Assembly: GCF_000003605.2 (NCBI RefSeq)
Contig: NW_003135352.1
Location: 277,588-327,068, forward strand
From: Saccoglossus kowalevskii
Taxonomy: Eukaryota > Hemichordata > Enteropneusta > Harrimaniidae
Direction: 5' to 3'
Length of the DNA: 49,481 nucleotides
Both the position numbers and the translations under genes were made by a program. The notes under the pieces are model-generated. The model worked only from the letters and a program-made list of their open reading frames with translations. It had not been told where the DNA came from and made no database searches. Within the stretch, counting starts at the first letter, position 1. Every line of letters begins with the position of its first letter. Shown one piece after another: positions 7,301 to 47,993 of the stretch.

Positions 7301-10300
7301 AATTATCGTATACAACACATTTGCTTATGTAAACAACAGAGGTGTTTATGTGTTCAGAGTAGGTCGTATTTCTCGTATTCTCAGATGCAAGCATCTTTTA
7401 CCGCCTAGCAGTCATCACCAATGAAATAAAAAAACAGTTTTGGCCAGTTGTTGAGACTCTACTTGATGTGTACCAAGGTAGTATATAAATTTGGTTGTTC
7501 AGGATAGTCCCAAAGTTGAGGTTGTGCTGTTTTTACCAGCTCTTCAATGTTACAGCGTGTCCAAACGATATGAAACATTTGGCCATGGAAAATAAAGGTT
7601 AATGCAATGATTGTGCAAAGCTCTCACTAAAAACAATCACCACCAATGATGAATGTTGCTGGCTTTTCAGAAGGAAAAAAATTACAAGTATAGAAAAGTT
7701 ATACTGATTAATACAGCTGCCGGTGACCAATCAGTGAGAGAAAACATTCCTGGCAAAAATGATGGTCAATATCTCAAAAAGCTTCTTTTAATATTTATCA
7801 ACTCAAAGTACTAAACATTTCTAGCTAAAGCGTGTGATCATTAAAAGAGAGAACTTGTTGAAGCCAAATACCATGTCATCTGACAGCGATCAAATTTCAT
7901 GGTCTAATGTGGAAGGTTAGAGCTTTAAAGATAAGATAGAACCAGTTCAAATACCTTGTCTTTATCATCTAACTTTCCATAGATCTGAGCCAAGTAGTAA
8001 AGCGTTAGTGTATGTAACTTCTCCATATGTAAATGTCTCTGATGTTCTGATAATCTGTCATCATCTGATAGGAATAATCTGAAAAGAAAAAAATTAAATT
8101 AGATCACTTATCTTAGCTAATCTGACAATTAATACTACCAGTAGTCCACACACTCATACAAACTTCATGGTATGATGTTGAGGATCCTGTTGCTTGAGTT
8201 GAACTTAGCATGGTTACAGACACCAGAATTAAATTGCAGTAAAAAAATTTGATGCTGTATCCTATTCTGCAATATATATTTTTAAAATCACTAGAGTTTA
8301 TAAATTCAATTTATAGTGATGTTGTTGATTTTCAGTAAACCGAAAAGAATTTTTAGTGATTTAAAAAATTTGTCACAGAAATTTTTTTTTTTTAAAAGAC
8401 GACGTACAAAGTAAATTGTTTCGAGTTTTATCACCTTTCACAAAATAATAATTTGTTCAAATTTTTTTTTTCAAATTAAATTTTTTTTTTTTAATTTTGA
8501 TAAAGATCTGTAGCCAATGATGAATTAACAAATAAATTATGAAAAATGCTTTAAAATTTTGCTTCAACATTTTTAAAAGAGGGAGCAGAGGTGTGGCTTT
8601 TGACATGGATCGTTATGGCATTCATACGCACAACATTTCGCCATGTTTCAACTTTTAAGTAGTCAGTTAACAAGGTCTTTCATAGTAGCATTTCTATGGG
8701 ATTGACGTACTAGCATGAATGGGTTCAATTATCAGTGTTCACTGATGACGTCATTTGACTGGCCCTCTAGAGGCGAAATGACGCCAGGAAAAGCGGACGT
8801 TGTCGCCTGCTTCACAGTCCGTTTTATACCCGATATTTAGGGAATTTCGCAGCACATATAAATTATTTTTATCAACAGAATTCATTCATAGATCTCAGAT
8901 TTCATGTAGAGTGTCAAAAGCCACACCTCTGCTCCCCTTTAAGTGAATAATTATGCTGCTCAAACAACTGAATGGATTATTTTAAAATCTGCAATGAGGT
9001 TATTTATTACGAGTACAAAAAAGATAATACAATGGAAGTTGTAACCAACACGTGAATATACAGTAGATGCGATCGTATATCGTCTGACTGCATACTTTGC
9101 AGTATCATTGTACCTCTTCCCAATCCAACAGATTAGTGTAGAATGTACAGAACTAAGAAAAATGATATAAAGTGTTGTAACATTTTCGCTGTGAACTTTG
9201 TTTTTCAACAACGTCCGCCATCTTGAAATACAGTATAATTGCTCCATATTGGGAAATTTGCATTTCCTAATATGGTAAGATGTGCAAACCCATGTAATAC
9301 TGCATGATAATAACTAATGGCGATATGATGGCAGATAATTAAGAATACTCACTCATTCAAACTGTAAGGAGCAGTATCACTATTATGACAATAATCCTTG
9401 TAAAGCGATTCGGCACTCTGTCAACAAAGAAAAACACAACGTGAATCAGTACTAACCAGTAAAGCAGTTGATTTTAAAAATAAATGCCCGTTTTGTAAAT
9501 GAGGCACCATCACAGTTGAAAGTGAGTTTGCAAATCAGAAAAAGACTCCATGGGTATATTCCTCACAAAGCATGGTGTACGACTTTAATTTTGCGAGAGA
9601 CAAATTCGTCAGAGGAAACCATAAAATTTTGTACAGCAGCGAAAATTTCGCAGGGGTTCTATGACTTTCCAAAAATTTTGTCTTCATGAATGGCATAAAA
9701 TCAAGAAAATTCCCAGCAGCAAAAATGAAAGTCTTTACAATACAGGCCAATGCTATAAATACTTTACAAAACACACTTTAGCATACTGTATAATACTTTA
9801 TTTTCGCTTGGAATTAATTTTTCGTTATTTTTGCTGAAGGAATGATTCAGTGAAAATAAAATCTAGCGAATATACCTTTTTTTCCTATATTTTACATTCA
9901 ACTCACCAAAAATCAGTGAAAATAAATTCCATACAAAACACCCAAAAAGTCTTTTCAGCGAAAATTAATTCCAGCTAAAATAAAATATTTAACAGTAATA
10001 CTTTTATAAGAAAACATACCTGGAAAAATTTGAAACTTTTTTCGAATTCGCTTCTTGCTGACCAGAGTATACCCAACTGATTCAAACTAGCGAGTACAGT
10101 ACTGATACATTTCGTATTGGCTTTATTGTCCTTTAATAGCAGTAGACATTTGTTGAGATGCTCCTCCCCTGATGACAGCTCTTCGCATTCAATGAAGTTC
10201 AAACCAAGTTGATATTCTAAAGTAGCCAACATGAACTTGACATCTAGTTATTAAAAAATAACAGGGCGAAGAGTTAAAGCAAAAACTGGGATCGTTTATT

Positions 10301-15325: not shown

Positions 15326-15331
15326 TTTATT
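15326..15331 (-). terminator. Polyadenylation signal of the secreted-peptide gene
   Basis: AATAAA on the minus strand, about 140 nt downstream of the TGA stop at 15469-15471. Confidence 0.5.
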
Positions 15332-15468: not shown

Positions 15469-15897
15469 TCAACATCCGTACATTCCTTTTCCCAAGCCTC
15501 CCATTCGCCCACGTTTGCATTTGTTGTAAGGTCTGAATCCTCTTCCCGGATTCCGTTGCGATGGTCGGCTGTTTCGCATTCCGGTATTCGGCCCCCTTTT
15601 CTCCGGATTCGCCAGCTTCGGCAATATATTCAAGGCAATGTAACGGTACAAATTCTGTAGCAGAACGTTTTCTGCGAATGTCCGGGGATTTTCGTAATCT
15701 ATTTCATTTCCGTAAGCCGTGTTGTCAATTTCGTAAGTCGTGTCTTCATCATACACGTCATCCTGAAGTTCTGGGTAGTCAACATCGTATTCTCCCAACT
15801 CGTCCCACTTGTACATGTCGTCATTTCCGGTAAGTGATCTGGCGGTTCTGATGTGTTTCAGTTGGCTGTCGTCCACGGCGGCTTCTATCGGGGCTGC
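15469..15897 (-). CDS. Main exon of the secreted precursor (pro-region and basic tail)
   Basis: 429 nt including TGA; acceptor ctatttcag|GCA, phase 0. Begins AAPIEAAVDDSQLKHIR with no methionine near the acceptor, so it needs an upstream start exon. It is GC-richer than its surroundings and open for 143 codons, both signs of coding sequence. Contains the acidic Tyr-rich pro-region, KR site and Cys-ended basic tail. Confidence 0.78.
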   Translation of the reverse strand, partial: AAPIEAAVDDSQLKHIRTARSLTGNDDMYKWDELGEYDVDYPELQDDVYDEDTTYEIDNTAYGNEIDYENPRTFAENVLLQNLYRYIALNILPKLANPEKRGPNTGMRNSRPSQRNPGRGFRPYNKCKRGRMGGLGKGMYGC

Positions 15898-18800
15898 CTG
15901 AAATAGATGAAAATAAGAATTCTACTAAAATATTCCAAATAAAAGAGTGATCGTTAGTATGAAATAACGGGATAAAGTGTATTCACGAGCCATTCCTAGA
16001 TATATGTATAATCTCAAACAAAAACGGATCTGCTTCATTACATTAATTATATTTAAAAATGTCACTAATATCGAGTTTGACCTCGAACTATGGGATATTT
16101 TGACATTTAAAAATACTTTGGTTTATCCGCGGTATAAGCAACCATTGGGGGAGGGCATTGCTTAGCCCAAATTTGGTCATGTGACCCATTCATCTGGTCA
16201 TACGTTTATTCACGTAAATCCACACGTTTCATTGTTTTTATACAGATTGTAAACTGCAAAGATCGTATTCATATGCAGAGTGTAAACGCGGCGATGATAA
16301 CTTTACATAATTTGTAAATCATCATTGTATTAGTTACATATTAAACTGTACAGAATGTGTAAACCGCTATTTTAAATCAGACCTGGAGAGATAGAGATCT
16401 TCCTCAATTATTAAAACAGTTGAGAAAGGTTGGCAATCACATCAGACAGAATCTTTATCGACTGTGTTAGGCCAATTGTATTTGTGTCAATTGCTCCGAA
16501 CAGAGCGAGACGTCTCCAGACGTCTTAGCCAAGCTGCAAGGTCTGATTAACAATAGCGGTTTACAGTTTATGCACATTCATCTGTAGCAATTTCACTTAG
16601 CATGTGTATACAACTATAGAAATTACATTCTGCATAAGTGTGATCGATTTACATTCTGCATGAGAAAAAAAATATTTAAAAAAAGAAATCAACAGGTCAC
16701 ACGACCATGAGTGCTATAATTCTTTCTCTGCTGAATAAACACATGCATACTGCAACAAAGCATTCATTTCACTGATACTAGCGTATATAATTGAGCGTAT
16801 ATTGAACATATTTATTGGAATTTAAATTTCCTGATATACCAGTGAAACGGTGAGTTCTATTAAAATTTGACACGTCCACACGGATTTTAATGAGTAATCA
16901 GCAAAATTAAAATCCAGTGAATAATGAATTTACAGTCTTTGTCTTTGAGTCCCAACCGCTATGCTAGAGTGTCCATAAAATAAACTGGTCATCGTTTGAA
17001 TAAGTAGAAAGAAGTTTTTTCAAGCTATATATATATACACTATTATATATATATATATATTGGTGACAAATTATGCATAACGACCTTGACAGCTTATTAG
17101 GGTTAACCATTCAATTAAATGGCTCAGTATTACACTAGACTGGTAATGTGAATTTCACGGAATAATTACTCCCAGCAAGCACAACGCGCGCATCAAATTT
17201 ATTGAACGACATGCGACTAATGATGTTTTATACGCTATACAAATAGTGTTGGTCTCTAGTATTGCACCCACTACTTGTGTATTTACCATCTCGAAAATAA
17301 GAACATTAAAACAAGCATCCTTGGGGGGAAACCAGTCATTACAAGCTGTGCTGATTGATGCTTAGCACCCCACGGGGAGTGTTTAAAACGGACACAACAC
17401 TATTCCAATTGATCATAATAAATTAATAATACTGGGTTTGACCTGTGACCAAGTGCAACTGAAGCCTTAATATGACAAGCAAACGTTAGTGCATTTTGTA
17501 ACTATATTTTTCTGTTTCAGCAAACGATATATGTGTGATGAGATGCGTAACTGCATATTTTATGTTACAATATAAATTCAAATTCGTCAGCAATATATTA
17601 TCTGAGCATTTGACACTTTGGTCAATGTGACTCCATAATATACATACGTTATAGCGGGAATTTCGTACAACACTATTATTCTTGTATTAGTTATTTGGAA
17701 ATATTCAATATATAAAGGGTGAAAAACCTTTTGAAACCTCTAAATATAAATTGTATTGGTTTGCCAAATTAATGATTTATCAACATCTCAAAGACATATA
17801 GGAAGACTCATAAATTCCAGGAAACATCAAAATTGCAATGCAAGGTGCAAAATGAAGTCTTGAACTTTATGTTTTCGCCGACTTATACTAAATGTAAATG
17901 TATGTCACGTTTTATACTCGCTTAATACTGCAAGGCAAATTCCGAAAAAAAACGACCTCGTTAATTACCTATTACGAATTTGCCGTAGCACAGAAAAATA
18001 CCTAATCAGTAGTTTTGAAGCATCGTCTGACGCCATTCAATCATTACATTTCAGAAGAAATATCTGATAATTTCAAAAAGAGGTTGCGTTAAGCTAATAA
18101 CATTTCCATGTAATTAAACGTCACTTTGGTAAGTGAAAGGTATATATCGCAACAACTTGTCTTTGGGAAATATAGCTTGTGCAAAGCCAATGTGTGAAAC
18201 ATACACAATGGGGAGACGACTTTAGGGGAATTCCGGACTCCGCTTGTGTTCGACTAGACCTGCTGGATGCAGGGTGGCGCAATAAATAACCATACCATCA
18301 CAACACAATACCCTGTCCCCAGAGTGGAATATTGTTATTAATTATGCTTACAATTCAGAAGAGGCATCAATGATATTCAACTTATAATCTTTTTACGTTT
18401 CACATTCAGCCTGTTGGTATGCGTTTTTATTCTAGATTGTCCTCTTTACAACCACTCAACATTAAGTGTGCGTTTCTGTTTTTTCAGAACCAGTGCCAAT
18501 ATAAGCATAGCAGTAGTGCAAATTTTAATTTAAAGCAAAGTCCTTATAAATGTACGTTTTGTTTACACATGGAATACTATACGTGTCTTGGCATACAATT
18601 ATAACAAAGGCTATACATGCGTTACTATAAGTATAATGCCCAGACACGAAAGTAACATTTAACAATTAAACTAGAATAATATCAAAGTGTGGCTTCATGG
18701 AGATTGTTACAAAGGATTTATCTCTTAATTCAATTGTATATAATATATAGTCTTTATATCAAACTGACACGAAATAATATATATATATAACTTCATAACT

Positions 18801-21800
18801 ACATGTACCCGCCGTATACCGCAATAAATACGCCTTCTTAACGGTTATCTTCTAAGCGAATGCGCGTGCGTGAAGCAACATGTGTATTCCCGTGCCGGTT
18901 GTTCTATTAACAGACAGATTGACAGGTCGGCATACTCGTGACACCTTCAATTAAATGAATTAGTTGGACGTGAAGTAATTGGTAATATAATATATATAGA
19001 CATTTGGGAACGCCAGTCCTTGGCTTCGTCGTGTATAAGTAGACACAGTGGCCTTTGGGAGGCCTTTGTGACAGAGCGTATTGAGTACGATATATGTTTT
19101 GTATTACACACACCGGAGGTCCTGTGCTTCTATGAGAGCGACAGGAGAAATACTCGCATAATACTTTTGACATTATATATATTAAATAAAATAATGTATG
19201 CATTACTGGAAAGCTGGTTTATCGGAATATGTGACCATAGGCGTACTTCATGTAAAAGTTAAGTTACGGTGAATGCTGTGAACAAAGACGGAATAGAATT
19301 AAAAAAAAATCGAGGCGCCCGTTTCATTTATTGTACTTAACTAAAACATTTAACACTACGACAAAGACTTTTCGTTTTCGACATTGTGAAATTATTTCGT
19401 GTTTTGATGATTTTGACAAGATTTTTTGTTAAAAATAATTCATAACAACAAGTATTTCCCATACTCCTATAAATAATTGTCATGGTTGAAAATACAAACT
19501 ATGTAGTATGTTCAACAACTCATGTATGAACAATAACTTTAATAATTATGATTATACTTGGTAAAAATACTGTATTTTTCTGTATAAAAACGAAAGAATT
19601 TAACAATGTCGAAAACGAAAAGTCTTTACGCAGTGTTATTTACATGTATTGCATTTCATTCACGCACTCAATCATGATTCAGAGCTCATCAAAGTATTTA
19701 CATTTAATTTATGTGACGTGTTTGCGATATGTTCACTTGACTTAAATTAAAAGTACTGACAGAGAAATTTAAAACATGTCGTTTTGTGGTTCATTACACT
19801 GCATTATACTTTCAGTAATATTATATGACTGAACACCCGGAAACGAGTCGATTGGAAAAATGTGTATATGTAACTTAATCACTTGAGCAAATAATATTCA
19901 CAGGGGAATGATATATGATAAGAGTGCATTGCAGGGTCGAGAATATGGGACGTTAGCAAATGTAAAAAAAGACATAGTGTGGGATTTCTATTATGATAAT
20001 GTCATGGAAAAGAGCTGAAAAGTGAGGCAAAAACGCCGTTCAATTACATAGTATATTGTTATTACTTGGAATATAAATCGATGAATAGACGCGTGATATG
20101 TTCGATCACGCCAATAACGCTGCATGCTCGTTCTAAGTTTATGCATAACGCGCACCGTCAACGATTCATGTTTAAGCGAATTTGAACAAAGCGACTTCAC
20201 ATTCCAAGTCGTCCTATAAGTCTAAACTTAACATACAAACATTTGGTGTTTTATCAAATGCTATATACACTAGACGTTTATCTTTGTTGTTTTCATAACA
20301 ACCAACCACGAACAAGGAAGACAAATAATAATTATGACGTATATGCCTAAAAGATACCACGTAATTTGTTTTTAACCTACGTCCTAACTTCCCACGCATA
20401 TGACGCACACTACATAGAAAGATCTTTGTCAGACATATCACAAGACATTTGCAGTTATATAATCTAGTCCGGGTCATAACAAAGAATCGTATAAGTTTCC
20501 CCGTTCTGCATACGTAATTGCAACAATTCCCATACTTAATAAATATGTTAGTGAGCAAAGTTATAACGCGAATTGTAAGACTTTAATACTGTTTGGGTCT
20601 CATTCTACCTTTGAATGTACAATTCCCTCACCACTTTACCAAAGACGTAAAAGTCAATTAACAGCAAACGGCAGACAAAAGAATCTTTATTATTGCAAAA
20701 ATATATCGATAATGTACGACAATATTTTACTCCAACAAGTAATATATATTTAATTTCTTCTCTTCCTGGGGAGTTGTACACCTCGTGCAAGGTTTGCGAA
20801 TCGGCAAGCAAGTAATAACATTGCTTAATTTCCCTCCTACAATCAGTATGACGTGTTTGATTCTTTTGGTAATGCCTGGAACCGTTTTCTAAAGCTGCAC
20901 TACCTTTTGTTGCGATGTGTGATATGTTCATGTTGCATGAATTGAAGCTCGATTGCTCAAACATCACACATATTCCGGCAAATGCGCTCAATTATCAAAC
21001 TATTGTGTTTCTTCAAATGATCGATATCATCTGAATTTTATGCATAATGGAGATCAATAGTAGCCACCCACACTTCGTCTGCTGAACGAGAAGGGCTTTT
21101 CGTTTCTGTATGTGTCTCATCCTGAAATGTGACTTCAAATATGTTCTGTTCATTTTGTCTAATAAAACCGTAAATTAAGATTTTTTTTATGAAAAATGAA
21201 AGAGATGTGAGATAAATCACCCTGGGTGACCTCGATTCATTCACAAATGTTTGGATACCTTGAATCGATTCCAGTATTCATCACTCATAGGTGCACAATT
21301 GAACGTTTTTAATGGTGCAATATATGAAACAAAATGTTATCACTCGTTTTGAAATATCTGACATCACTTCTTGACTTTGACTGCTCTCGCCGATTTGACC
21401 GAGTGTATTAGAGTTCTCTTCTTTTTATTGGGGCATGGTGTTATTTATATTGTACATGTTATTTTTTACGATGTAAGATTCTGTTGTGTATTGATGTTAT
21501 TGCTAGTATGTATGATGCTATTTCTAGTATGTATGATGCTATTTCTAGTATGTATGATGCTATTTTTAGTATGTATGATGCTATTTTTAGTATGTATGAT
21601 GCTATTTCTAGTATTTATGATGCTATTTCTAGTATGTTTGATGCTATTTCTAGTATGTATGATGCTATTTCTAGTATGTATGATGCTATTTCTAGTATGT
21701 ATGATGCTATTTCTAGTATGAATGATGCTATTTCTAGTATGTATGATGCTATTTCTAGTATTTATGATGCTATTTCTAGTATGTATGATGCTATTTCTAG

Positions 21801-24800
21801 TATGTTTGATGCTATTTCTAGTATGTATGATGCTACTTCTAGTATGAATGATGCTATTTCTAGTATTTATGATGCTATTTCTAGTATGTATGATGCTATT
21901 TCTAGTATGAATGATGCTATTTCTAGTATGTATGATGCTATTTCTAGTATGTTTGATGCTATTTCTAGTATGTATGATGCTATTTCTAGTATGAATGATG
22001 TTATTTCTAGTATGTATGATGCTATTTCTAGTATGAATGATGGTATTTCTAGTATGTATGATGCTATTTCTAGTATGAATGATGTTATTTCTAGTATGTA
22101 TGATGCTATTTCTAGTATGAATGATGCTATTTCTAGTATGTTTGATGCTATTTCTAGTATGTTTGATGCTATTTCTAGTATTTATGATGCTATTTCTAGT
22201 ATGTTTGATGCTATTTCTAGTATGTATGATGCTATTTCTAGTATGTATGATGCTATTTCTAGTATGAATGATGCTATTTCTAGTATGTATGATGCTATTT
22301 CTAGTATGTTTGATGCTATTTCTAGTATGTGTGATGTTATTTCTAGTATGTATGATGCTATTTCTAGTATGAATGATGCTATTTCTAGTATGTATGATGC
22401 TATTTCTAGTATGTTTGATGCTATTTCTAGTATGTAATGATGCTATTTCTAGTATGTATGATGCTATTTCTAGTATGTTTGATGCTATTTATAGTATGTA
22501 TGATGCTATTTCTAGTATGTTTGGTGCTATTTCTAGTATGTATGATGCTATTTCTAGTATGTTTGATGCTATTTCTAGTATGTATAATGCTATTTCTAGT
22601 ATGTATGATGCTATTTCTAGTATTTATGATGCTATTTCTAGTATGCATGATACTATTTCTAGTATGTATGATGCTATTTTTAGTATGTATTATGCTATTT
22701 CTAGTATGTATAATGCTATTTCTAGTATTTATGATGCTATTTCTAGTATGTATGATGCTATTTCTAGTATGTATGATGCTATTTCTAGTATGTATGATGT
22801 TATTTCTAGTATTTATGATGCTATTTCTAGTATGTATGATACTATTTCTAGTATGTATGATGCTATTTCTAGTATGTATGATGCTATTTCTAGTATTTAT
22901 GATGCTATTTTTAGTATGTATGATACTATTTCTAGTATGTATGATGCTATTTCTAGTATTTATGATGCTATTTTTAGTATGTATGATACTATTTATAGTA
23001 TGTATAATGCTATTTCTAGTATGTATGATGCTATTTTTAGTATGTATGATACTATTTCTAGTATGTATGATGCTATTTCTAGTATTTATGATGTTATTTC
23101 TAGTATGTATGATGCTATTTCTAGTATGTATGATGCTATTTNNNNNNNNNNNNNNNNNNNNNNNNNNNNNNNNNNNNNNNNNNNNNNNNNNCTATTTCTA
23201 GTATGTATGATGCTATTTCTAGTATGTAAGATGATATTTCTAGTATGTATGATGCTATTTCTAGTATTTATGATGCTATGTTGTTATTTCTAGTATGTAT
23301 GATGTTATTTCTGGTATGTATGATGTTATTTCTAGTATGTATGATGCTATTTCTAGTCTGTATGATACTATTTCTAGTATGTATGATGCTATTTCTAGTA
23401 TTTATGATGCTATTTCTAGTATGTATGATGCTATTTCTAGTATGTATGATGCTATTTCTAGTATGTAAGATGATATTTCTAGTATGTATGATGCTATTTC
23501 TAGTATGTATGATGCTACCTTCATTGGCTGTATTGTTATAACCTCCGACAATTGTTTGAAGAATTCTCCGATTATTTCCCGATTATTCGAATCATTGTGT
23601 GAGTAAACCACAGTAGGGTAGAGGTATTAGTACGTGTATTGTGAAAGGGGTTATCTGTATTATATTATTTCCACAAAGTAAGACTTTGATTCTGTTATGT
23701 GTGAGGTTAAAATGTATATTATTACTGTTAAGTGACACTGCACGGACTTGCACACGTCAATGTAATTTCTGTAAAATAATTATTGGATATTTTAACGTTA
23801 CAATTCCAGTTTAAAGTGTATAACAGCACGCTTGATAAAAATAGGACATCAGCGCCCACTAGATTGTCTAGATTGAATGTAGCATTATTGAATCACGAAA
23901 TAACATTTAAAAACAGATTACTTGCATCCTGTATAATACACCTTTGGGGGAGTTATTGCCGTTGCTAATACAGATAATTAGTAAACTAATCGACACTAAA
24001 TTAGGATTATTTGACTACTTATTTCATTAGTGAGTGACACAATAATGTGTTCAATAACAGACCATTAATTTACAACAATAATAACGCGAATAACTATAAT
24101 TTTCATCGTTGGTGAGTTTCGCTATCAACGCGCATGCGTAGGCGTCTCGTTGAATCGCGCGTGGCTGGTTTACAAGTGTCTGTATGGACATGATTATAAT
24201 TGATTTGACATTCATTCATTCATTTGAGTTCTCCAGCTGTTTGTCGTAATTAGAGTACGTACGAATGTTACCAGGGAGTAATAGTATAAGATGGGCTCAC
24301 CCAATAAAGATATTTTCTAGTTCTCCCCGTTATTATTTTTAATTGAGAGTCTGGACTAATGTAGATTAATGGCTACAATACTGTGAGCATGACACAACAG
24401 TTATCGATGGTTTATTATCAGAAGTTAAAGTCATACATAAAAGCAGGATTCGTAAAAAAACATAGCATTATTATTATTATTATTATTGCTAGTGTTTTTG
24501 TTTTGTTTGTTTTTTTACAACAGCTGAATTTATATATATATATATATATTCGACATCAGTGTCATTAATTGGAAGGTGATTGAATATATAGGTGTGTATA
24601 TCAGGATTGTTGGAGGCGTACTTATGGAAGTGGGCGATATTGCCGTGATTTGTTCATTGGAAAATATTTTTAGATATGAATGCAGGGGCGTTTTATCACA
24701 TTTTATTAATAATAGCTTTACTCGAATTCTATATATTTTGACACTTTTACTGACAAAAATACATATGTTGAGTGCATGCGCAGTGAAGTGATTTCTTTCA

Positions 24801-27800
24801 TTTTCATTTGTTCGTTTTAGATAATTAGCATGTGCATGTAACTTGTACATTTCTCAAACGATATTTGTTTTGACGTAGTCAATTGTACTTTGTGAATGAT
24901 TCTATTTACTTTGAAAACATACATCTCGACTAAGCAAAACGAAATGTAAACACTCTCCGAATGGCATCCACATAGGCCGTTTGAAGACCCGAAAAAAGAA
25001 AACCGTAGGTGGTCGTTGTCCATCCACCCCTTTTCTATTAGTAAACGGGGCCAATCAATGTATAAATGGGATGTGGATCGTGGATTCCATCAAAACCTTT
25101 AGTTAGGGGTACCCCTTTAATTATAGATTTCTAAAAAACATGTTTTTCATTAACAAAAAGTGTTTCAGCATTTTGCACTCATTCATATATTGTTATTAAT
25201 TTATCGAGCAAATATAATCCCCTTAAAAATAAACCTCCCTTGTCCGGTGAGCAGGGAAGTAGCAGCTCGTGGATTTTAATTTGTACCTTAGGTCAAATAC
25301 GCTGGAAATATGGTTACGTATTAGTTGTCGTTCGCTTTTTTTTCTATTGATAACCAACCGTACTTGTAATACTTCATCATAATAATAAATGGCGTGTTAG
25401 TCCGCAAGTAAGACAACGATTGGAAACACTGAATAAGGTTAATGAGGAATTGGGGATGAGTGTCATTATCATAAGAACAACTTGCGGTTCCTTTGACTCT
25501 ACAGTAAAATGCGAGCGCATATTTTAATTGACGGACGACTCAAATATGAAACTCGATCACGATGAGTTTCATGGTTGTATTTACAACTGTTTATGGCCGC
25601 TGATCGGCCATTTTATATGTTGTATACTGTAAAACACTTTGAAATAGCTACATACCATTTTAGCTAATTTGACTCCATGCATGAATTAACTGAATCTTAA
25701 TTTAGCTAAAGTGCCAATAATCTTACTGTGAGAATATACTTTATTTTAAATTAGCGAAATCTTGAATTAACGAAATTGTGGATTAGCTAAATTATCTAAA
25801 ATAACATGCTAGCTAAAAAGACATGTTATACAGTACTTAACATGGTTTAGCTGAAAACACGGCCGTTGAAAGCCGAACGACACGACCCGCCACTTCACAT
25901 TTGAAATACATTCTAAATACGCTATCAGTGCACGCATTTCGTTCCAAGGGAAATAACGAAACCTGCTTCGAAATTATCTGTATTTGTCACACAGCACATA
26001 TAGGTGTTGAAATTATAATCGATAAAAGAGTTTTTTAGTATGTTTTTTTTTTAAATTGTATGTAATTGAAATAATAAATTATCCAAACGTGCATGCGCAA
26101 CAAACTACTAGTACGTATCATAATCATTAATGCACACTCGTTCATTATTACGAATACACTATCAGCGTAATGCAAATCCAAGTTTTCTCTTCACGTTGAA
26201 CATACACAAATGTCTCTTTAAAGCTTTATCGCGTTTAGTGTTTTCAAAAAGTCGAGTGAATATTATACGAATACCACCGACGAATCTGCGTTGGACGACC
26301 GCCCATGGGGTAGAGCAATCATAATCCAGTAATCGCTTCCCTTCATTTCCAAAAGATTAACTCACAATGTATGGTAATTGAGTTGTAATCTAAAGTGATG
26401 GATTACCGTGACCTTGAGGGGAGCTATGCAGATCACAATACCGGTATTAATCGCTGTGTTTTTCGTGAAACATTTGTGAGATTTTCATTTGACTAAATTA
26501 TGCTCTTGTACGAGGTTGCAATAATTCACATGCTGCAGTGAATACATATTGGAATGATCAATATACCGTTCGAAAGAACTAGATTTGTCCGAATAATAAT
26601 TCGATTTGTTTGCAATTGTACATTTTTTTATGATGAGAAATGTATTTGTACTTATGCTCTCAGTAAAGGTAACCACGTGGCATGTGTTTCATTGAATATT
26701 TGTTGGCAGTGCACACCTTGCTTTGTGATGTGCCTTCTACTGCACTGTACTCACGCAATTTCTCGGCGTTTCAAGTGAGATCCTCAACTCGTTAAGGACA
26801 CTAAGTTCTTCTTAATTGATAGTTGCGGGTTTCCGTCGTTTACACCTGCGCGTCACGTGTGCTAAATCAATCGTACACTCAATTAGCATATACAGTTAGG
26901 AGTCCCTTAAGGCCGTTCACCCATAACCTGAACCCTAACTCTAGCACACCAGTCCAAAAATTCAGTATTAATTAATTCAGTAATTAAAACAGTAATTCAA
27001 TATGTCCCTCCAAATAACTATAACTGAACCAAAGAGGGGTATATACAATTGCAATAGGGGAGGGGCGCTGTAGGGATTGGGTTCAGTTAGGATTAGTGTT
27101 TTGACTGGGTGTTATTTTACTTCATTTAATCTAAGTTTTATTTGAACCCGTTTAAATTACTGGTATTCAGTATATAGAGCACTAAACGGATAGTTTGATG
27201 AGCGAAAAGTGCATGCTGGGTATCCCCAGGATTGCCTGAAAGGCATTGATGGGATAATGATCGAGGCGATCAACAACAAAGATGAATCCGAATAACCACA
27301 GCACGTTTTGTTTTTGTTGTTGTTGTTGTTGTTGTTGTTGACTTGATAAAGTAATAATTATGTTTGTCAATCTACTAGTAGCGTATTCCATTCTTTCCAT
27401 TCTTTTTTTTGACCAAAAAAACGGTAGAACGAATGCCATATATGTGTTATATCTACTCAAACGTGCTTTACTGGGAAATCAACTTGAATGACAACGATGG
27501 ACACCGGGCGGGACGCCGGGGCGCTGATAGGAATCACGTCGCTTATTGACATTGCAAACGGGGGAGAACGTGCTTTCACTTCAGGTAATACATATTAATT
27601 ATGCGATTCCGTCCTTGTGCAACGTGTTTTTGTCGAACAAAATGCGTATAATACGATGAGTTGTAGGTCACATAGTCATCATGAACTGATCGATTTTCTC
27701 ATAATAGTTCAGGCATTATCTGTTTGTTTTCGTCAAAGTGTTCATTGCATTGTTCAATGTTGATAAAAGAATGTACGCAACGCCGATGTAAGTTCACTGG

Positions 27801-30800
27801 GTCTAAAATTAGGTAAGCTAACATATTTTGGCGATAAATTTATTGAAACTTTAAATCAATCGTATGTACCTTGTTGTAAATTTACCACCCCTCTACCGTT
27901 TTTTACGGAATTAAATGGAATACTAAAGTATTCGCAGGACAATAATATGTGTATTTTCGCCGTCGTGCTTTACATGTTGTATATTTCATTATTTTGCATG
28001 AACTTTTTGCAGAGATCACCGTGAATTACATTACCCCGCATAACGACAGGAGTCGAGGGAGATGCGACTTTACGTAACGCCGTCTTCTTTTAAATGCAAT
28101 AGTTTCATGTGATGATTGATGACGTCACAATTCTCATAAACGTCATTTCAAAAACAGGAAGCTATTCAGACTTACATAAACAAGTGAGATTTGCGAAAAC
28201 TCTTTTTTAATGCATGAATATTCATATTTAGTTGCAAAATGAAAAAGCTGTCATGATGTAAATTATCCAGTGGTGATTACATACAACAGACTGAAGTATA
28301 TTGCCGTAGTTTAAAAACCTTTTCCGTCGCTTGTAATACTCTACAATGTAAAAAGCTAACATCGTTCGACCAGACGATGGAGACTTTGTTAGCAATTGAA
28401 AATTGTTATAAGTTAATGAGTTATTTACGGACTTATAGATGGAAACATACCATTTGGGATTTGGATAGTAGTGAATGGTAATTGACTGATATCAACTCGT
28501 CATGCCTCTTACTCGAAGCTAAAACTTACTTAAAACTAAAACTACGGTTTACTTTATGTTCTTTGCATTTTTTTGGCGTGGGAGCTCATACGCCTGCAGT
28601 ATCGGGTTTCTGAAGTCATTTTTTTACGCTTAATAGAAAATCAATGCTTATATCGAAGATCTTAAACTAACGCATACCGGAGACGAATCAATTCTTCGGT
28701 AGTCGCTCACGTGTTGCTATTTTGGTATGTACTCAAGTACCCTTATGTATTGTGAACATATCGACAGTATTAGACGCTACGATTTCCCACTACATCGGAT
28801 CCATTGTTTTCAGTTTTATTTTTGGAAACGTATTTTCAAATGTCAGTCCAGTCTACATTTGATGGATTCGTAATGGAACCAGTCGCATGAGAAGAGACTT
28901 CCTATTCGCAGATCCTAATACTATTGGCGTTTAGCTAATATTAGATTGGTTTCTCGATAATAACATTTTATAGCTGATTGTATAGTGAGCGTCACGGTTC
29001 CAGTGGAAAACATTGAACTCATGGTGGACAGTGTAACAAGCACGCCAATCACGTCTCGGCTTCCTGGTTAGTTGTGTACCCTCTCCGTCCACGCAACGTG
29101 TCAGCTTACGAATTTGGAAATCGATATTGAAGCTATGGGGCCATTTTGGCAAATTTCTATCTTGATACCACTTAGACATGTCTGAATAAACAGGACGCAT
29201 AGCGTATGATTTCTGAATCTTATTAAGAAAAACTTAAACATTTTTCATCATTTGTCAATATAACATTTAAATATTGTGACAGCTGACGATTTATCAAACA
29301 TAACTTTACAGACAACTTATTAATATTGGCCTGAATGAGCTTCGTAATCGTGACTATGTGCCGTAATTTTCATGCAAATATGGCACATGGTACTAGTATT
29401 ACCTCTGTCGCATCACTATGTCGCTTGCAGCGCTCACGTCTCAATGCGCCGTACAAAATGGCGTTGTGTTAGCTGCTTCTGGCCATGTTGTACGGCTGGT
29501 TGTTGCACATGAACACTCCTTGGCGAAAATAGATATCTATTTAATAATCGCTTATAAATCTGGTTATGTTATAAAAAAAGACTTCAAGACAATCAAATTA
29601 TTTGAAAAAACAAAACATTTTTAGAGGTGGATTTTAGTTCGAAAAGATTGGTACAAAGGCTGATATAGTGACGCTCTCCCAATTGAGTTTATTTAAACAT
29701 AACTATGAGACCGACTCACCATTCTATACTGTTTCGTACCTAATTAAAATAAAGTCAGCGTCTGAGTAAGTATCGTTCTGAGGATACGTATCCATCTACA
29801 GAGAATAGACTTCACAGTTGAACCATCGTCAAATCGCATCCGTTCAATCCTCTAAGCAGTAAGCTGTGGCATTATACCTTGACAATTCGGAATGATTTAA
29901 ACGAGAGATTCACGCATTGCTTCCGGAAAGCATGCATGTACTTATTTCCGTTTTGTTTGAGGCCACACACCATTTCGACGTGTTTCTTTTACCCAAGGTA
30001 CTACACATGATTCCACAACTTTTATACCTCATTCTTCTCATTTAAATAACAAATATAGGTCCTTGAATTTGACAACATGTCAATAAATGAATGGCGTCAA
30101 ATGAACTTGAACTAGAATGGATGGGTTATTTTAAAATGTTTTGAGCTTCGATGAGTCGAGCTGAGGTATTCATAATACTTATTGTCCGTCAGCGTCCGTC
30201 GTCGTCAACTTTATATTGTTGACCTCTTCGTTAAAACAGTTAGACATATGGCTTTGATACTTTCCATAAAATCATGATTGGTTTTTATTCAAATTTGTTA
30301 TTTTTAAGAATATGTCTTATGATTGTTTTTATTATATACCGCATGTTATGAGTTTTCGATCGTATGTATTGTGATGTTAGAATACAATATAAACGTTTAT
30401 CCTGGGATTCTAAATATTTGTTCTTACTGAATGCAACGATTGTTTCTGTCCTGGTGTAATGAAGTATCAAGATGCCGTGTGTACATCGTGTAAATCTCTA
30501 TCGCATGTCACAGCGATATGGGTCTGCCTAACCACGGCAGGTACTGGCCTAACATAAGTATAATCATATCTGAACTATTTAAATGCTTCGAGATTTGAAT
30601 GAAACATTGGGTTTAGTAATAATAAGTAGACGATAGCGTTTCGCAAAACTCTTGGTTGCCGTTTACAACTAGATGTTAATAACTCATATGACAGGAACAC
30701 AGATAAAAACGGTGTCAGTTAATCTGCGTTACATTTATAATTACAAAATTGTCGATGTATGAACATCGTTTTAATGGAGAATGCGAACATGACTTGAGCC

Positions 30801-33800
30801 TGAGGAGAATGAACTTCAATGACGTGGAACCGTCATGAAAGAGTAGGTGTAATTGATTGAGAAGAAACTGGAAATGATGCGAAGAAGCAGATAAGATGCT
30901 TAAGTGATGGAAGCGGAAATGACGTCACACAAATGACGTTACTACTTCCGGTAAAATGATGTATTGAAGAAAGATGAAATTGTCAGCAATACGAAACTCA
31001 GTCTATAACGGTGATTTGGTTGGATATGTTAATAATGTAATTTCCGTTGGGAAATCAACAGGGATCGTTTTCCCGTAGAATGGCTTATATAGATAATATC
31101 TTTACTTAAATGTGTAACCTTTAGATAACATTTTTGTACAACGATGTACATTTTTGTCCTTATAAATCACATCGTCATAAATGTATCTCTTCTGTGATGT
31201 AAGTTCGCTTATCTAATTCATTTTTTCGTAACGTCACTGTCATTGTTGGTATGATTCGATGATCTGAATATCGGGTGAACATTTGGTTCAATTACTTGAA
31301 ACAGATATCGTAATCGTGGAATGGAATGGAATGGTTGTCAACTTGCCGTATATATTTTTAGTGATATATTTTCGACATAAAACCCGAAGCGTGTAATTGT
31401 CTATCCAAGATGTTTGTCATAACGGTGTCATCCATGCGCAACATGCCACAGGGGTCGTTCCAATTGGAAATTATTCGCGTGTAGCGATGTTTGAAAAAAA
31501 CGCAACAGATTACAATGTCAAATGTCACAGTGTCTGTGTTTATAAAGAATGGGAATACTAGGAAACGTGAACCAAATAGCCCAATCTGAGATTTAAGCGC
31601 TGTCTGGAGTTTTAAATAGAGAGAAAACTAGATAAAGTTTTTGTAAAGAAAAATCATTGGTAAAAATAATTAGTTGAATTATTTGTATGAAAAAATATAT
31701 TATATGGAGCGTGGCATTTTGACATTGTGTGGTCACTAGAATATAGATATGGCTGGAAATATATTAAATTTAATTTACTTAATTAATTGACTTTATAACT
31801 AATCAAATGTTTAAAATGCTCAATGTACACATCTTTAATATCTGAATATCTGAATGCGCATTTCAATATTTCAGTATGAACTTTCAAAACCACAGCCAGC
31901 TTTGCGGTAATGGTCGTCGTTGTGTAAGACTTTTTGACTCCCCCCCCAAAAAAAAAACTAAACAGACAATTTACGACAGACAGGAATATCAATTTGTATG
32001 AATGATGATTTTATAATGAAAGCAATTACCTGATCACAGTTTCACACAAAAAAGTCAATCAATTCGATATTAACTTTATAATATTACAATTAACGATAAA
32101 TATAAGCGTTATATAACAATATTCAGACCGGTCTAGTTACATCTAGATGCTAATGATTTAACGTCGCAATAATGCATCATAAATCTGTTATTCTACAGTC
32201 ACGTTTCAATTGAGTTACCGGGGATGGTTAATGTCATTCTTTCCTAAAGTTTCGTGTACGTGTTAATATGATTATGTTTACGGGTGCGTATTTAATTACA
32301 TCTCACGAATCTACAACGATTAGATGCCCTTCTTTCTGACATAATGATTTATCCATTTCTGGGATACCCCCAAAAAGACTTAATTTATTATTTTAGTGTA
32401 TTTACACTTCATGCGTCGATGTCTGGTGTAAAGTTGACTGTAAGGACTACTTCTCATTTTTGCCACACGTCGAACTGGAAGCATCGATGTATAACGGGTG
32501 CTGCGTGTAGAGTAAATGACACAATTTATCAGTTGCATGCACTGCATTTTGAAGTTTACTACATTCATCGTCATCTGATAGTATTCCATCTTGTATTTTA
32601 GTTCATATCGAGAATTTAGATTCATTATGTTATATTATGGGTTACATGAGGTGTTTGTATTTGACACGTGATCTTATCACAGATAATTCACGCTGTTATA
32701 CAGATCATAACTTTGGAGGATTTGCGATGAGAAATCATTTGTTTATCTATGACAATCATGTCAAACTCGTCTAAAGACGGAAGACAGTTACGTAGCCATT
32801 TAATCAACCAAAATACATCGCACTAAATACTATGGTCAGCAAAGCATGAAATTACACTGTGTATTATACTATATATGGCTTGGACTTGAAGAAAAGTTTC
32901 GACTTGTGCCACGAGCATTGGAAATGAGAGAAAATGTTACATATTGCCTTAAATATTTTCCTTTTGTTCGAATGAATACAAACAGATACATTGCACGCTT
33001 TATTATTTGATTACTTCTAATACAATACAATGCAATAATGTCACGTGATATTGAAAACATCATTCTAATACGTGTTGTTAATAACACAAGCACATTGGTT
33101 TAACACCGTCTGCCATACGTTCGCGTAAAGGTCCTAGCAAAAATAACAGCACCAGTTGCAATTACAATAAATGTAAGTCATTTAGGCTTATTTTACTGAC
33201 TTGTCAAGAGAGTAAATAGTCTGTATCTTTATTGTGTCAATGTTTTCACATTGAAAAGAGGAGAAAGTTATCTAACTAACTCACGTGGTTAATTGTTTGG
33301 CTTTGCTTCCGGGGTGTGGTGGCCCATACACTGATCTGTACATACTATCGAACTTTAACATTTAACTTAATTTTCATGTCTTCTATCATTATCAAAAATT
33401 GGATTTTGAAACATCACCTATTTACTATCATATCTTGTATGGATCAGATTTAAATTCAAGGATAATTTATTACAGTCTAAGGCGTTATCGTCTTTTGTAA
33501 CACGCATGCGTGGGTTCGCGTGCAGTTAATTTCTTCCTATTCACATCAATAAACTATGTCGATTGATTTTATCTATATTAGTAGTGTAATCATTAACATA
33601 CAAAGCTTCTTCAATATTTATTTTACTGTAAATTGCAGATGTTATCGGATATATTGATGGCGGAGTTGGAATTGTGTTCCACAAGGCTCCCCAATATATA
33701 AGCCTTGCAATAAACTTTAAAAACAATGTTTCAATACAACCTCCTTAACAAATGTATATGTGAATTACCGGTATATATAATTAATATGCTTTCACCAAAA

Positions 33801-36800
33801 TAGCAAAACAGAATTTTTTTTTCAAATCGCTCATAACTAAAATATCATCATCTCACTGTGAGCCAAGTGTCACTATTGTGTTTTAAGAGATGCATAAGAC
33901 ATCAATGTATAATACAAAATATGATCATATACCACAAAAAGTTATAAACCAAATAATTAAGAAATCACAATAAGAAACATCTTCAAATAAATATATAAAT
34001 TTGAAATCGTGAATAATCACAATAAATAATACATTGCAAGATATATATACTCAAATATTATTTGGGGGAATTGGCCATACAAGGGTTGGATTGCAAGGGA
34101 AGTCATAACGACAATTACAATAAAAACATGGCTAGCACGATTGAAAGTTTACTTTTCGTCATCCAAAAAATATATTTCTATGAAAAGAAGTTGATATCAA
34201 CAGACCTTCTTCGGTTGTATTGCGGTGTAAAATAGATTTACAACATCATGTTATTAGACATGGCGACTGCTGGTTTTAGTGTATGTAATAGTTATATGCA
34301 AATTCCATATGCATCGGTTCGGTTTATTCAATACTAAAATAACCCATATAGGTATGGAATGTGTGTTTGAGACACCGTGTAATCTTTAAAAGTATAGTGT
34401 ACGATAAAGTTATCTAAATCTTCGTTGGTCATTTCCGGTATACATATTTACACCAGAAGTAAGTCATTTGATAGTCATTTTGAGTCATCTCGAAACCGCT
34501 TGGTAGGAGATCTTTATACAATAAAACCCTGCACGAATTTGTGCTCAGTAGAAATAACATGTATTTTAAACTGAGTATTCGCATACTCAAATTGTGCAAA
34601 ATAAAAAGAAATAAATCAATGCGCATAATAAAAATAGAAATAATGCCAATAATCAAAACAGAAAGGTTAATTCCATGATGAAAGAGGTCAATGCGCATAA
34701 TCGAAACAAAAGAGTCAATGCGCAAAATAAATCCATAGCAATATATTAAAACGCAAATGTGTTATTGCTTGCAATGCTTTAATCTGTCAAGTACTGAGCC
34801 AAACTGAACTGTAGTAGCAGATGAATATACACGAAGAAAATTTCAGGATATGCAAGCTATGAAATAAAACAATGATTATTTGCAGAAAGAATTAACATAT
34901 ACATTGATTACAAATAACATATGAACAAATTCGGCTAAAACGCAATCCATGACCATATTTAAACCGAAAATAAAAATATGAACCCAATACATCTGATATA
35001 GCTGTTAATGATCATATATCGAGGCCGGGTGAAAGCGGGGCTGACGGAGGCACGTCGTATCGTAAATGTAACCAGATACGTGATGGGTATAAAAGGAAAC
35101 AATTTGGTTAGCCATACCTTTATGTAACGAGAGACTATGATAGCGATTGTTGTACCGCGCAGTTTGTATGATAATACCTTTGCTTAATTGACGAGTTCTG
35201 TGGTGATAATGGGCGTATTGATCCTATAATTTGATCCATAACCACATTGGATCACAATATGTGTATCTAATATCATCGCAACTGAGATATCATGTAGAGG
35301 ATCATTAGTCAAACAGTTAGGGACCAACCAATGAGTATTTATATGGAGTGAGATTACTGACAAGTTTAGGTTCATCGCGTTCTTGGTTATTGGTTGTTTG
35401 CTTTTTTTTTATTTCAGTTCTATTATTTCACCATTATTTTATAATTGTTACTAGAGTCATTTGATAGTTCAAGTGCTATACGAATATTACGTAAGATGCC
35501 GCTCTACATTACTCTACTGCAACTTACTTTTGAACATTGGCTTGGTTTCTCGTGAATTCCTGTTGAAGTCACAAATGGGTGTCCCATTTAAGTCACAGTA
35601 TATACAGGGTCAATGCCATAAATTGATGTTCTTCTTAAGTCACAGTATATGCGAGAGGGGCATTAACATCACTTTACCATCAAAATAGTTATATATGCTA
35701 CATAGCAACAACTCCACAATACAAGTATATTGGTATGACGAATTTATAACGTATTTTACCCTAGTGGCTCTGGACTGTTCCCATGGATACATGTATTAAT
35801 GTAACTTATCAAATATTAAAATGTGTAAGACGGTTTTATTTTCTGTATGTTCCCCCCCCCCAGTTCGTTTACATTCTAAACGCATGATTTTTTCTATCGT
35901 AATTATATTGATAAAGATATATTGATAATCAATTGGGAATTGATTTGTTTCTAAGCATCCCGTATAAATGTGTAATTGCATTACCCGCCTCGAGGGGTCG
36001 CGTTTATGACTTGCACAATGTAAGAATTGTTTAATGGGAGCGATATCGCAAATAATAAATCATAGGTATCAAACCCCAATGATAACAAATCACGCAGTAT
36101 CCAATTGTAATTAGTTTCATTGCCATCTGTTGAAACATGTGACATCATCATACACGTCACTGGTCTTGATTTCTTGGAATCTATTTGTAAAGACGTTGGT
36201 GCTATAATGTATTAACAATGACTCATTACTATTCATACATAATTACCCGCCGTAAATTGCGTTCCGCAAAGATCAATTGGTGTATGATATACGTAAGTCT
36301 TTATAAAACGTGCGAGAACGCCACAGATGAAGGCATATTTTGAGCAATCACGTCTGTTGAAGGTAGTAATGAGAAATGTCGAAGGTAAAACACTGACTCG
36401 CAGCATATAATGAAGGCAATTTAACGTTCTCTCGGGTTAACTCGGCGTGTGTATCGCTAAAATCGCTAATTGTAGTGTTAACACGTTACATACGCACGAT
36501 AACATGTTTTATCAACATTACACCGTAGTAATTACAGGGTGTCTTTTCGATGATAGAGGCACGTACAGAGTGTCCTCAGTTAGTATCATTATAGTTTCGA
36601 TTAACATCAGTGTATCTCAAGATAGACATCGCATGTGTGAGTTAACCCTTAGAACGCCGCTCCCAAGGTGGTTGTGACAATTTGTAGTTTTTTTTTAATC
36701 GCGCTTATTTATTTAGTTTTTCGTAAAAAATCTTCGTCAATTTGAAAACAAATGGTTTAAATTTCTATTGCGTGCGTGTCTTAGCCATTTTTTAAACAAA

Positions 36801-37519
36801 CAATCCGGTTTGTTTAGCGAAAGATGATAAAAGATGATTTTGGCGTTTACAGTGTTAAGAAAGACGGGACGTCGCGTCAGCGTCCTAACAATGAAACGTT
36901 GAGGAAAAGCGCACTCGTTGTTACGTTTTTTTACTGCGCTCAAATTCTACGTATTCAGGGAACAACAACTAATATGTAAATGTTGATTTCATTACTTGGA
37001 ATACTTAATATAAATCTAAATGCACAGTAGTTAAACAGTTAGTGGAATTGGAAAATGTAAAGTTGCAAACTTACTACAATACATTCAATTCCATGTAGTC
37101 GTAAAATACGAGACTCGATATACTCGATAAGTTAAATTGTAAACGCCGTGCGAACGAAAAACTTCGTACTATTGAACGACAGTGATAAAGTCGTTATAAT
37201 CAGTTTACCATTTCTACAAAAGAGTCCTGTTCAAGTCAAGCCATTTTGCTAATAACAATACTGATAAAATGTCCCCCAAAGATTGAAAGACATATCTTTT
37301 TTCTGCGTACATCAAAATTATTACTGAATTTATAGAAAAAATACAGAAACATTCACATAATTTTGATTAAATTGCAGAAATATCATAATTATTGTTAAAA
37401 AAATAGAATCAACTATTCATAATGAACAGAGCAAAATATAATCGAGTGTTACCACATACCTGGCAGCTAGCAAATATTTGTAAGAGTACAGCGAGGAAAG
37501 GCAGTGCGTTTAGCATCAT
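15469..37519 (-). CDS. Secreted cationic peptide precursor, unrecognised, two exons
   Basis: Joined exons 37460-37519 and 15469-15897, phase 0 to phase 0, give 162 aa. Residues 1-20 form a hydrophobic signal peptide (MMLNALPFLAVLLQIFASCQ), with cleavage plausible around CQA|AP. Residues 21-121 are an acidic pro-region (23 D/E; tyrosine-rich, e.g. EYDVDYPELQDDVYDEDTTY). It ends at a KR dibasic site (NPEKR), releasing 41 residues that begin GPNTGMRNSRPSQR and end CKRGRMGGLGKGMYGC: seven Arg, three Lys, no Asp or Glu, and two Cys 15 positions apart, the last being the C terminus. An acidic pro-piece plus basic Cys-ring peptide is typical of peptide hormones and of cationic antimicrobial peptides; I recognise no family. 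The exon pairing is inferred from phase, signal peptide and the absence of a better partner, across a 21.5-kb intron. Confidence 0.62.
16247..16665. mobile_element. Foldback / long inverted-repeat element
   Basis: Left arm 16247-16386 and right arm 16538-16665 are imperfect inverted copies; the inner ends match best (GTAAACCGCTATT...AATCAGACCT against its complement at 16538-16566). A perfect AGACGTCT pair lies in the loop (16508-16525). Confidence 0.65.
17026..17060. repeat. (TA)n microsatellite
   Basis: Two TA runs separated by CACTAT. Confidence 0.9.
21487..23518. repeat. 21-bp minisatellite, about 95 units
   Basis: Head-to-tail 21-bp units built on GATGCTATTTCTAGTATG plus TAT, about 2 kb and interrupted by a 50-N gap, so the true length is unknown. 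Because 21 is a multiple of 3, two plus frames (repeating YDAISSM and CMMLFLV) and one minus frame (HTRNSII) stay open for hundreds of codons; these are not evidence of a protein. Unit variants are clustered: AAT and TTT variants in the left half, GATACT and TATAAT variants in the right half. A 1-bp insertion near 22436 shifts the reading frame. Confidence 0.97.
23142..23191. other. Assembly gap inside the minisatellite
   Basis: 50 N. Repeat units flank both sides, so the gap is a collapsed or unresolved part of the array. Confidence 0.99.
24466..24549. repeat. (ATT)n and (TA)n microsatellites
   Basis: An ATT run at 24466-24488 and a TA run at 24531-24549, with a T-rich spacer. Confidence 0.88.
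25625..25835. mobile_element. MITE family B copy 2
   Basis: Same length and order as 694-903, including 'GTGAGAATATACTTTATTTT'; starts TACTGTAAAACAC and ends TTATACAGTA. It lies in the large intron of the secreted-peptide gene. Confidence 0.82.
26895..27110. mobile_element. MITE family G copy 2 (inverted)
   Basis: Carries CACCCATAACCTGAACCC on the left and GGTTCAGTTAGGATTAG on the right, and the reverse complement of the interior of 10745-10965 (CCAAAGAGGGGTATATACAA). Confidence 0.72.
27311..27341. repeat. (TTG)n microsatellite
   Basis: Nine to ten TTG units. The glutamine run in the minus-strand ORF at 27182-27460 comes only from this. Confidence 0.9.
28931..29212 (-). CDS. Possible alternative last exon of the secreted-peptide gene
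   Basis: 282 nt open from an acceptor (aataagattcag|AAA) to TAA, with AATAAA about 110 nt further on (28815-28820). From the acceptor it is in phase 0, so it could be spliced directly to the signal-peptide exon at 37460 to give a second small secreted product of about 113 aa. The encoded 93 residues are rich in W, R and H, have two Cys (RKLTRCVDGEGTQ... and WRACYTVHHEF) and a KPRR site between them. Base composition is higher in GC than the flanks. I recognise no family. A chance ORF is a fair alternative. Confidence 0.3.
   Translation of the reverse strand, partial: KSYAMRPVYSDMSKWYQDRNLPKWPHSFNIDFQIRKLTRCVDGEGTQLTRKPRRDWRACYTVHHEFNVFHWNRDAHYTISYKMLLSRNQSNIS
34616..34735. repeat. Degenerate short repeats (TCAATGCGCA)
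   Basis: TCAATGCGCA recurs at 34616, 34688 and 34714, each followed by an A-rich AATAAAA-type stretch; a decayed short tandem array. Confidence 0.6.
37460..37519 (-). CDS. Signal-peptide exon of the secreted precursor
   Basis: 60 nt, 20 codons, ending CAG|gtatgt in phase 0. Two ATGs in a row start it; a 10-residue hydrophobic core (LPFLAVLLQIF) follows. About 230 nt upstream, back to a TATA-like box, contain no ATG on this strand, which supports this start as the first of the transcript. Confidence 0.65.
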
Positions 37520-37741: not shown

Positions 37742-37749
37742 TATATATA
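37742..37749 (-). promoter_or_regulatory. TATA-like box for the secreted-peptide gene
   Basis: CTATATATAC on the minus strand. Transcription starting about 30 nt downstream (near 37715) would give a leader of roughly 200 nt without an upstream ATG before the signal-peptide start at 37519. Confidence 0.4.
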
Positions 37750-47412: not shown

Positions 47413-47839
47413 CTAAGAAAAAAGACAAGTATATACTGTAATAAAATTATTAAATTTTTTTACCAGTAAACACTTAAAGATGTTGGTTGGCGCCTGTATC
47501 CAGTTCGATATGGGAGTCATAAACAGCGCATGTAAAATAGATTGTTTGTTTCCTGACATTCGAACACGAGCTGCGTGACGACCGCTTTCCTTCAATAATT
47601 GCTTCAATGTATACATTTTAGAATTTATATTTAGCTTCGTCAATGTCTCTTTTCATTATGTGTGTAGTTGAAACCTGCCCCTCACACATTACTTGTTTGC
47701 AATTTCCAGATTCTGTTGTTGCGATAGATAAACAATGTAAACAACTTAGTTTTACAACTTTCCCATGGATGAGATCAAAACCGTACTTTCCCAAAAATCC
47801 TGTACCATAAATTGATATTACTTTCACAAAAGACAACAT
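47413..47839 (-). other. Coding-like region of unknown nature (two overlapping frames)
   Basis: Two minus-strand frames follow each other: 47839-47618 (MLSFVKVISIYGTGFLGKYG, then KLSCLHC and other Cys) and 47643-47413 (KQLLKESGRHAARVRMSGNK...HALFMTPISNW). They overlap by 26 bp and would join with one frameshift. I recognise no family. It could be a decayed transposon gene or pseudogene in the TTI1 intron, or chance. Confidence 0.25.
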
Positions 47840-47993
47840 TTTGCAAATAGGAAAACACTTTTGGCATTTGTTTGTTTGTTTATTTTTAGAACAAGATCTA
47901 CAGTCAATTTTGTGACATGTACACCCTAATAATACTTTACTTTAATACTAATAACACCACAAACAAAATGAATATTATTTATAAATATCACAA

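Follow-up and report, generated by a model that had tools for sequence, protein, structure and literature searches.

The question raised by this locus is what kind of secreted product is encoded by two short exons lying far apart on the minus strand of a hemichordate contig. The DNA analysed, referred to throughout as the window, comprises 49,481 nucleotides of the acorn worm Saccoglossus kowalevskii (contig NW_003135352.1, positions 277,588 to 327,068 of the forward strand), in which an initial annotation had joined the exons into a secreted peptide precursor with a strongly basic, Cys-ended tail. Judging from sequence, we find that the two exons probably form one gene, found once in its genome, and we give slightly better than an even chance to its product being an orphan secreted prohormone, either of a cyclic peptide hormone or of a neuropeptide. 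Precursors of this sort, well formed but lacking a family, offer concrete candidates that could be paired with orphan receptors.

Gene model and coding evidence

Both exons were recovered on the minus strand at the coordinates originally proposed, with a junction of phase 0 to phase 0. The exon 1 donor reads TGCCAG/GTATGTGG and the exon 2 acceptor TTTTCATCTATTTCAG/GCAGCC (the slash marks the exon border), each in phase 0, and joining the exons gives a 162-residue product. The elements of the gene are listed below from 5' to 3'.

37742..37749, minus strand: TATA-like box CCTATATATACAG, about 220 bases 5' of the first ATG, a consensus match only
37460..37519, minus strand: exon 1, signal peptide MMLNALPFLAVLLQIFASCQ, 20 codons, donor CAG/GTATGT, phase 0
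15898..37459, minus strand: putative intron of 21.6 kb, deduced from the two exons
15469..15897, minus strand: exon 2, 142 codons plus stop, encoding the acidic pro-region and the basic tail
15595..15897, minus strand: pro-region, 101 residues ending in KR, with 23 Asp/Glu and 9 Tyr
15472..15594, minus strand: predicted mature peptide GPNTGMRNSRPSQRNPGRGFRPYNKCKRGRMGGLGKGMYGC, 41 residues, net charge +10, presumably freed by cleavage after KR
15472..15519, minus strand: C-terminal Cys-x14-Cys unit, 16 residues, with a putative disulfide and KR inside
15326..15331, minus strand: candidate poly(A) signal AATAAA, about 140 bases 3' of the stop

To assess the coding potential of exon 2, we scored it with a codon table built from 438 codons in nine segments of KIFBP, the neighbouring gene in the window. 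Exon 2 scored +4.6 nats, compared with a mean of -30.8 (standard deviation 7.5, maximum -6.3) for 3000 Markov sequences that matched the local composition and had no stop, and its score was still reached by 0 of 2000 random sequences when the acidic KIFBP piece was dropped from the table. The pro-region alone scored 17.3 nats, matched by 0 of 2000 random sequences, and ranked second, behind one KIFBP exon, among the coding segments on the two strands of the window. The signal from synonymous choice alone, which ignores amino-acid make-up, was weaker, with 78 of 2000 random sequences equalling exon 2, 39 of 2000 the pro-region and 1068 of 2000 the tail; codon choice in this sense is only moderately unusual in exon 2. 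The G+C content of exon 2 was 48.7%, whereas the flanking 1 kb on its two sides had 33.9% and 32.6%. Because the window holds other stop-free runs of 120-160 codons, the length of exon 2 is weak evidence by itself.

Examination of splice signals within exon 2 revealed no GT from 15644 to 15512, an interval covering the KR codons; the highest donor score in the whole exon was 1.0, versus 1.1-7.7 for the nine KIFBP donors. It is therefore unlikely that splicing removes the tail or alters its reading frame, and only a sequence error would move it into another frame.

We searched about 33 kb of the upstream minus strand for signal exons, defined as stretches from ATG to GT that combine a donor with a hydrophobic core and a cleavage site of small residues. 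The exon at 37460-37519, with two nested ATGs, was the sole one to pass, while 1 site passed on the opposite strand of the same region, within a minisatellite. The cut-offs were chosen with the exon already known, and the initial donor cut-off would have lost 3 of the nine KIFBP donors. At a donor cut-off of 1 and a hydropathy cut-off of 1.8, nothing further passed on the minus strand and at most 2 sites did so on the opposite strand. The putative long intron contains a minisatellite at 21487-23517 with a 21-base unit in about 97 copies; neither of its strands is interrupted by a stop for hundreds of codons, which can mislead open reading frame finders. It also contains a weak coding-like segment on the minus strand (20755-20913), the best other segment there, which at 8.1 nats (8.9 for the weakest listed KIFBP piece) makes a further small exon possible.

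Precursor anatomy and competing readings

The residue counts of the initial annotation proved correct for both the pro-region and the tail, in which ten positive charges are accompanied by no acidic residue, and the processing site was located at residues 120-121, where the pro-region ends in NPEKR. The 41-residue tail comprises 7 Arg, 3 Lys, 10 Gly and 0 Asp/Glu, and only 5 of its residues are A, I, L, M, F, V or W, giving an isoelectric point of 11.6 and a grand average of hydropathy (GRAVY) of -1.43. A net tail charge of +10 was reached in 10 of 100,000 shuffles, in a charge-segregation test that presupposes the reading frame. The precursor contains only two dibasic sites, one of which falls exactly on the border between the acidic and basic parts. 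The Cys end of the tail had been recognised from the outset; the spacing of its Cys residues, 15 positions apart with the second as the last residue, and a second KR at residues 148-149, inside the predicted ring, had been overlooked. The two Cys residues probably form a C-terminal disulfide ring of 16 residues.

AlphaFold2 modelling of exon 2 alone from one sequence gave a mean predicted local distance difference test (pLDDT) of 55.8 and a predicted template modelling score of 0.23. The best-supported element was a helix at exon-2 residues 71-96, just ahead of KR (block pLDDT 65-81 as far as residue 90), and the tail was coil in this low-confidence model. A helix before KR and a coil tail would fit a prohormone and prove nothing. 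The sequence also has the general features of neuropeptide and hormone precursors, namely a signal peptide, a convertase site and a peptide-sized product. In such a prohormone the signal peptide would be removed, the acidic pro-piece would keep the basic tail soluble and aid sorting, a proprotein convertase would cleave after NPEKR, and both tail Cys would close the 16-residue ring. Neuroendocrine cells, or secretory cells of another kind, would then release the peptide to act at a cell-surface receptor, and a further cut at the KR within the ring would yield two chains joined by one disulfide.

Database searches were consistent with the original statement that the product fits no family familiar to the annotator, and it stands as a secreted peptide precursor without a recognisable Pfam or PDB relative. 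None of four Pfam queries (precursor, exon 2, tail, and tail plus preceding helix) returned a convincing family, the only match being TPR1-like at E 0.2; in PDB, the precursor gave 6 matches up to E 10, the best at 0.65, and the tail gave none. A search of the animal's own genome (572 Mb, 4830 contigs) returned one match to the precursor, namely itself. Viral and prokaryote contigs gave 2 and 35 pattern matches, none of them confirmed, as expected for an animal gene. Four stretches of the precursor sequence were absent from the literature text, a search with figures and supplements outside its scope, and we do not claim that the precursor is unlisted. A genome motif search for WFMRFG followed by a dibasic site, a motif taken from a neuropeptide name in PMC10508912, gave 0 matches.

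We then compared the precursor with Cys-containing neuropeptide types. As described in excerpts of PMC4772807, starfish MCH- and somatostatin-type precursors carry a C-terminal two-Cys peptide behind a dibasic site, a layout that the acorn-worm precursor shares. In the MCH type the first Cys is followed by Met or Ile, and the residue penultimate to the second Cys is basic (PMC4772807, excerpts); both features are absent from the acorn-worm ring, in which Lys follows the first Cys and Met-Tyr-Gly precedes the second. The somatostatin motif CxxxFxxxxxxC of the same excerpts (PMC4772807) is absent as well, the tail having Arg at the Phe position and 14 residues between its Cys, so that both motif and ring size differ. 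The eclosion-hormone type has six Cys according to an excerpt of PMC5627052, against two in the tail. Several orphan starfish precursors (Arnp11, Arnp15, Arnp18 and Arnp22-25) are likewise short Cys-containing peptides without a family in the excerpts of PMC4772807. Arnp11 and Arnp15 share with the acorn-worm precursor an acidic spacer ahead of the Cys-containing peptide, but carry six Cys; Arnp18 has nine, Arnp22, 23 and 25 have two Cys four residues apart, and Arnp24 has two Cys in a 14-residue peptide (PMC4772807, excerpts).

The acidic and basic halves of the precursor could also serve other functions, and the initial annotation had named antimicrobial peptides beside hormones. An antimicrobial precursor, in which the acidic pro-piece would neutralise a cationic tail that kills microbes once cleaved, agrees with the charge layout, the net charge of +10 and the isoelectric point. 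However, the tail is very hydrophilic, has few hydrophobic residues and is coil in the low-confidence model, and is thus unlike a typical membrane-active amphipathic peptide; moreover, antimicrobial families are often multi-copy, whereas this precursor has a single genome match. The tail anatomy leans towards a hormone, although no test decides between the two proposals, and we regard an antimicrobial role as unlikely. A structural or matrix-type secreted protein, of mucus, egg coat or similar, would use the Gly/Arg tail to bind acidic polymers and the last Cys to cross-link. Its merits are the Gly-rich basic tail (10 Gly and 10 Lys/Arg among the 41 residues), the Tyr-rich acidic pro-region and the Cys as final residue, but the protein is small, shows no visible repeat and has KR placed on the charge border, leaving this role improbable.

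Several observations weigh against the orphan prohormone, and part of them concern the gene model itself. The 41 tail codons scored -12.8, a value equalled by 1676 of 2000 random sequences, while the +1 frame across the tail is stop-free and scored +7.4, indicating that the coding signal of exon 2 rests on the pro-region and not on the tail; an assembly indel may have put the tail in the wrong frame. The signal peptide was called by our own hydropathy and donor criteria and not by a dedicated predictor. As for the peptide, the tail lacks a C-terminal amide signal, and its disulfide could instead link two molecules. A partly wrong gene model would mean that the exons come from two genes, that the signal exon lies elsewhere, or that the tail is misframed and its Gly/Arg content a by-product of GC-rich DNA. 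In addition to the tail scores, this view draws on the 21.6-kb span of the intron and on the coding-like segment inside it; against it, phases and splice sites agree, a single signal exon passed on the strand, and the GT-free stretch across KR is joined by exon 2 donors that all score below the weakest of the nine KIFBP donors. We consider an error of this kind distinctly improbable.

The natriuretic question and receptor-type exons

Vertebrate ANP, BNP and CNP have an acidic pro-region and a basic C-terminal peptide with a single ring, as does the acorn-worm precursor. Their core is a 17-residue ring, CFG...DRI...SGLGC, and in C-type natriuretic peptide (CNP) the ring lies at the extreme C-terminus and ends in Cys, a placement also seen here. 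A gapped alignment to the human ANP ring showed C..GRM...G and the final GC in common. The precursor could accordingly be read as a divergent natriuretic-type peptide, its tail a strongly diverged ring of natriuretic type that would be the first in a hemichordate, and as a ligand of the multi-copy family of natriuretic-receptor-type proteins in the same genome, where receptor-type exons are present and a canonical natriuretic peptide was not found. We consider both the identity and the pairing very improbable.

The disulfide loop of the natriuretic family has 17 residues (PMC12343078, in an excerpt), whereas the acorn-worm ring has 16 from Cys to Cys and contains neither CFG nor DRI. To evaluate the remaining resemblance, we compared global alignment scores with those of shuffled ring interiors (20,000 each), with a parallel run in which the final Gly-Cys was fixed. 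The ANP score was matched by 9.2% of shuffles (15.3% with Gly-Cys fixed), and the scores for BNP (47%; 70% fixed) and CNP (24%; 40% fixed) were ordinary. The mean of the three scores was matched by 20% (35% fixed) and the best of the three by 11.6% (19.9% fixed). Over ten ring comparisons the shuffle fractions ran from 0.09 to 0.70, and similarity did not rise above chance; the ANP-like look is therefore no evidence of kinship.

Consistent with this, BLASTP gave no alignment with ANP, and the precursor, exon 2 and tail did not match PF00212 at E up to 10, in searches whose HMMER filters discard many weak matches. A whole-genome PF00212 search returned a lone match of 20.9 bits, below the cut-off of 27, lying out of frame in a gene that we take to be sacsin-like, and of 14 control genomes given the same search, 3 also produced matches. 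Natriuretic identity was rejected on the shuffle test, the lack of a BLASTP alignment with ANP and the reading of the genome PF00212 match as chance.

The receptor side of the pairing rests on 117 ANF_receptor matches in the genome, two of which were compared with PDB. The exon at locus L029 was closest to the natriuretic clearance receptor (5e-27) and receptor A (3e-18), with other families at 3e-6 or worse, while that at L021 was closer to GABA-B receptors (1e-12 versus 9e-9). A genome search with the L029 exon, in which 64 candidates were scored, gave 22 matches, itself included, at E of 1e-10 or lower and with identities of 28-100%; 11 of the 22 sit on contig C1740. The lower matches, the L021 locus among them, need not be natriuretic-type.

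L029 and L037-L047, contigs C1740, C2308, C2725 and C704: multi-copy receptor-type exon family

The idea of a receptor cluster without cyclase domains was dropped because about 14 of the 20 kb downstream from the L029 exon reads N; cyclase-domain matches numbered 103 genome-wide. GC-A and GC-B are described as a vertebrate novelty, their clade being shared with insect and one echinoderm sequence (PMC1435932, excerpt), and natriuretic receptors have been identified in insects, crustaceans, arachnids, molluscs and cnidarians, with some evidence for natriuretic peptides in oyster, crab and earthworm hearts (PMC12343078, excerpt). Given such receptors in other invertebrates, natriuretic-type receptors in a hemichordate are unsurprising in themselves. 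With receptor-type exons present and no recognisable natriuretic peptide, the ring peptides of the genome become natural ligand candidates, and the exons pose a ligand question without answering it.

Neighbouring gene, repeats and the mitochondrial contig

The next gene downstream lies on the same strand as the peptide gene.

2377-11745, minus strand: KIFBP gene, with its start MAASMDN at 11745

Its exon at 2377-2646 is KBP_C-like in Pfam (E 2.6e-5), at 24.2 bits under the curated cut-off of 29.5. Elsewhere in the window, a stop-to-stop run of 107 codons at 47618-47941 on the minus strand contains the Cys-rich stretch CHKIDCRSCSKNKQTNKCQKCFPIC and has no Pfam match. Two tandem repeats were also found, one with a 75-base unit at 45833-46198 (4.9 copies, 91% match) and the other with a 31-base unit at 1436-1916 (15.5 copies, 82% match).

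Outside the window, the 17,037-base mitochondrial contig C4830 carries cox1 inverted with respect to the vertebrate order, on the strand opposite the frames of nad1, nad2 and cox2; these gene names are our own reading. The cox1 stretch contains ten ATA codons, one at the very start and nine elsewhere, and a single AAA. We take the nine ATA positions to be usually Ile or Val and the sole AAA position to be usually Lys. According to an excerpt of PMC2697986, ATA for Ile is common to echinoderms and hemichordates, AAA for Asn is specific to echinoderms, and AAA codes for Lys in Saccoglossus. A molluscan source, considered at first, was discarded on the strength of this codon usage. The usage of ATA and AAA in cox1 thus most likely reflects a hemichordate-type mitochondrial code.

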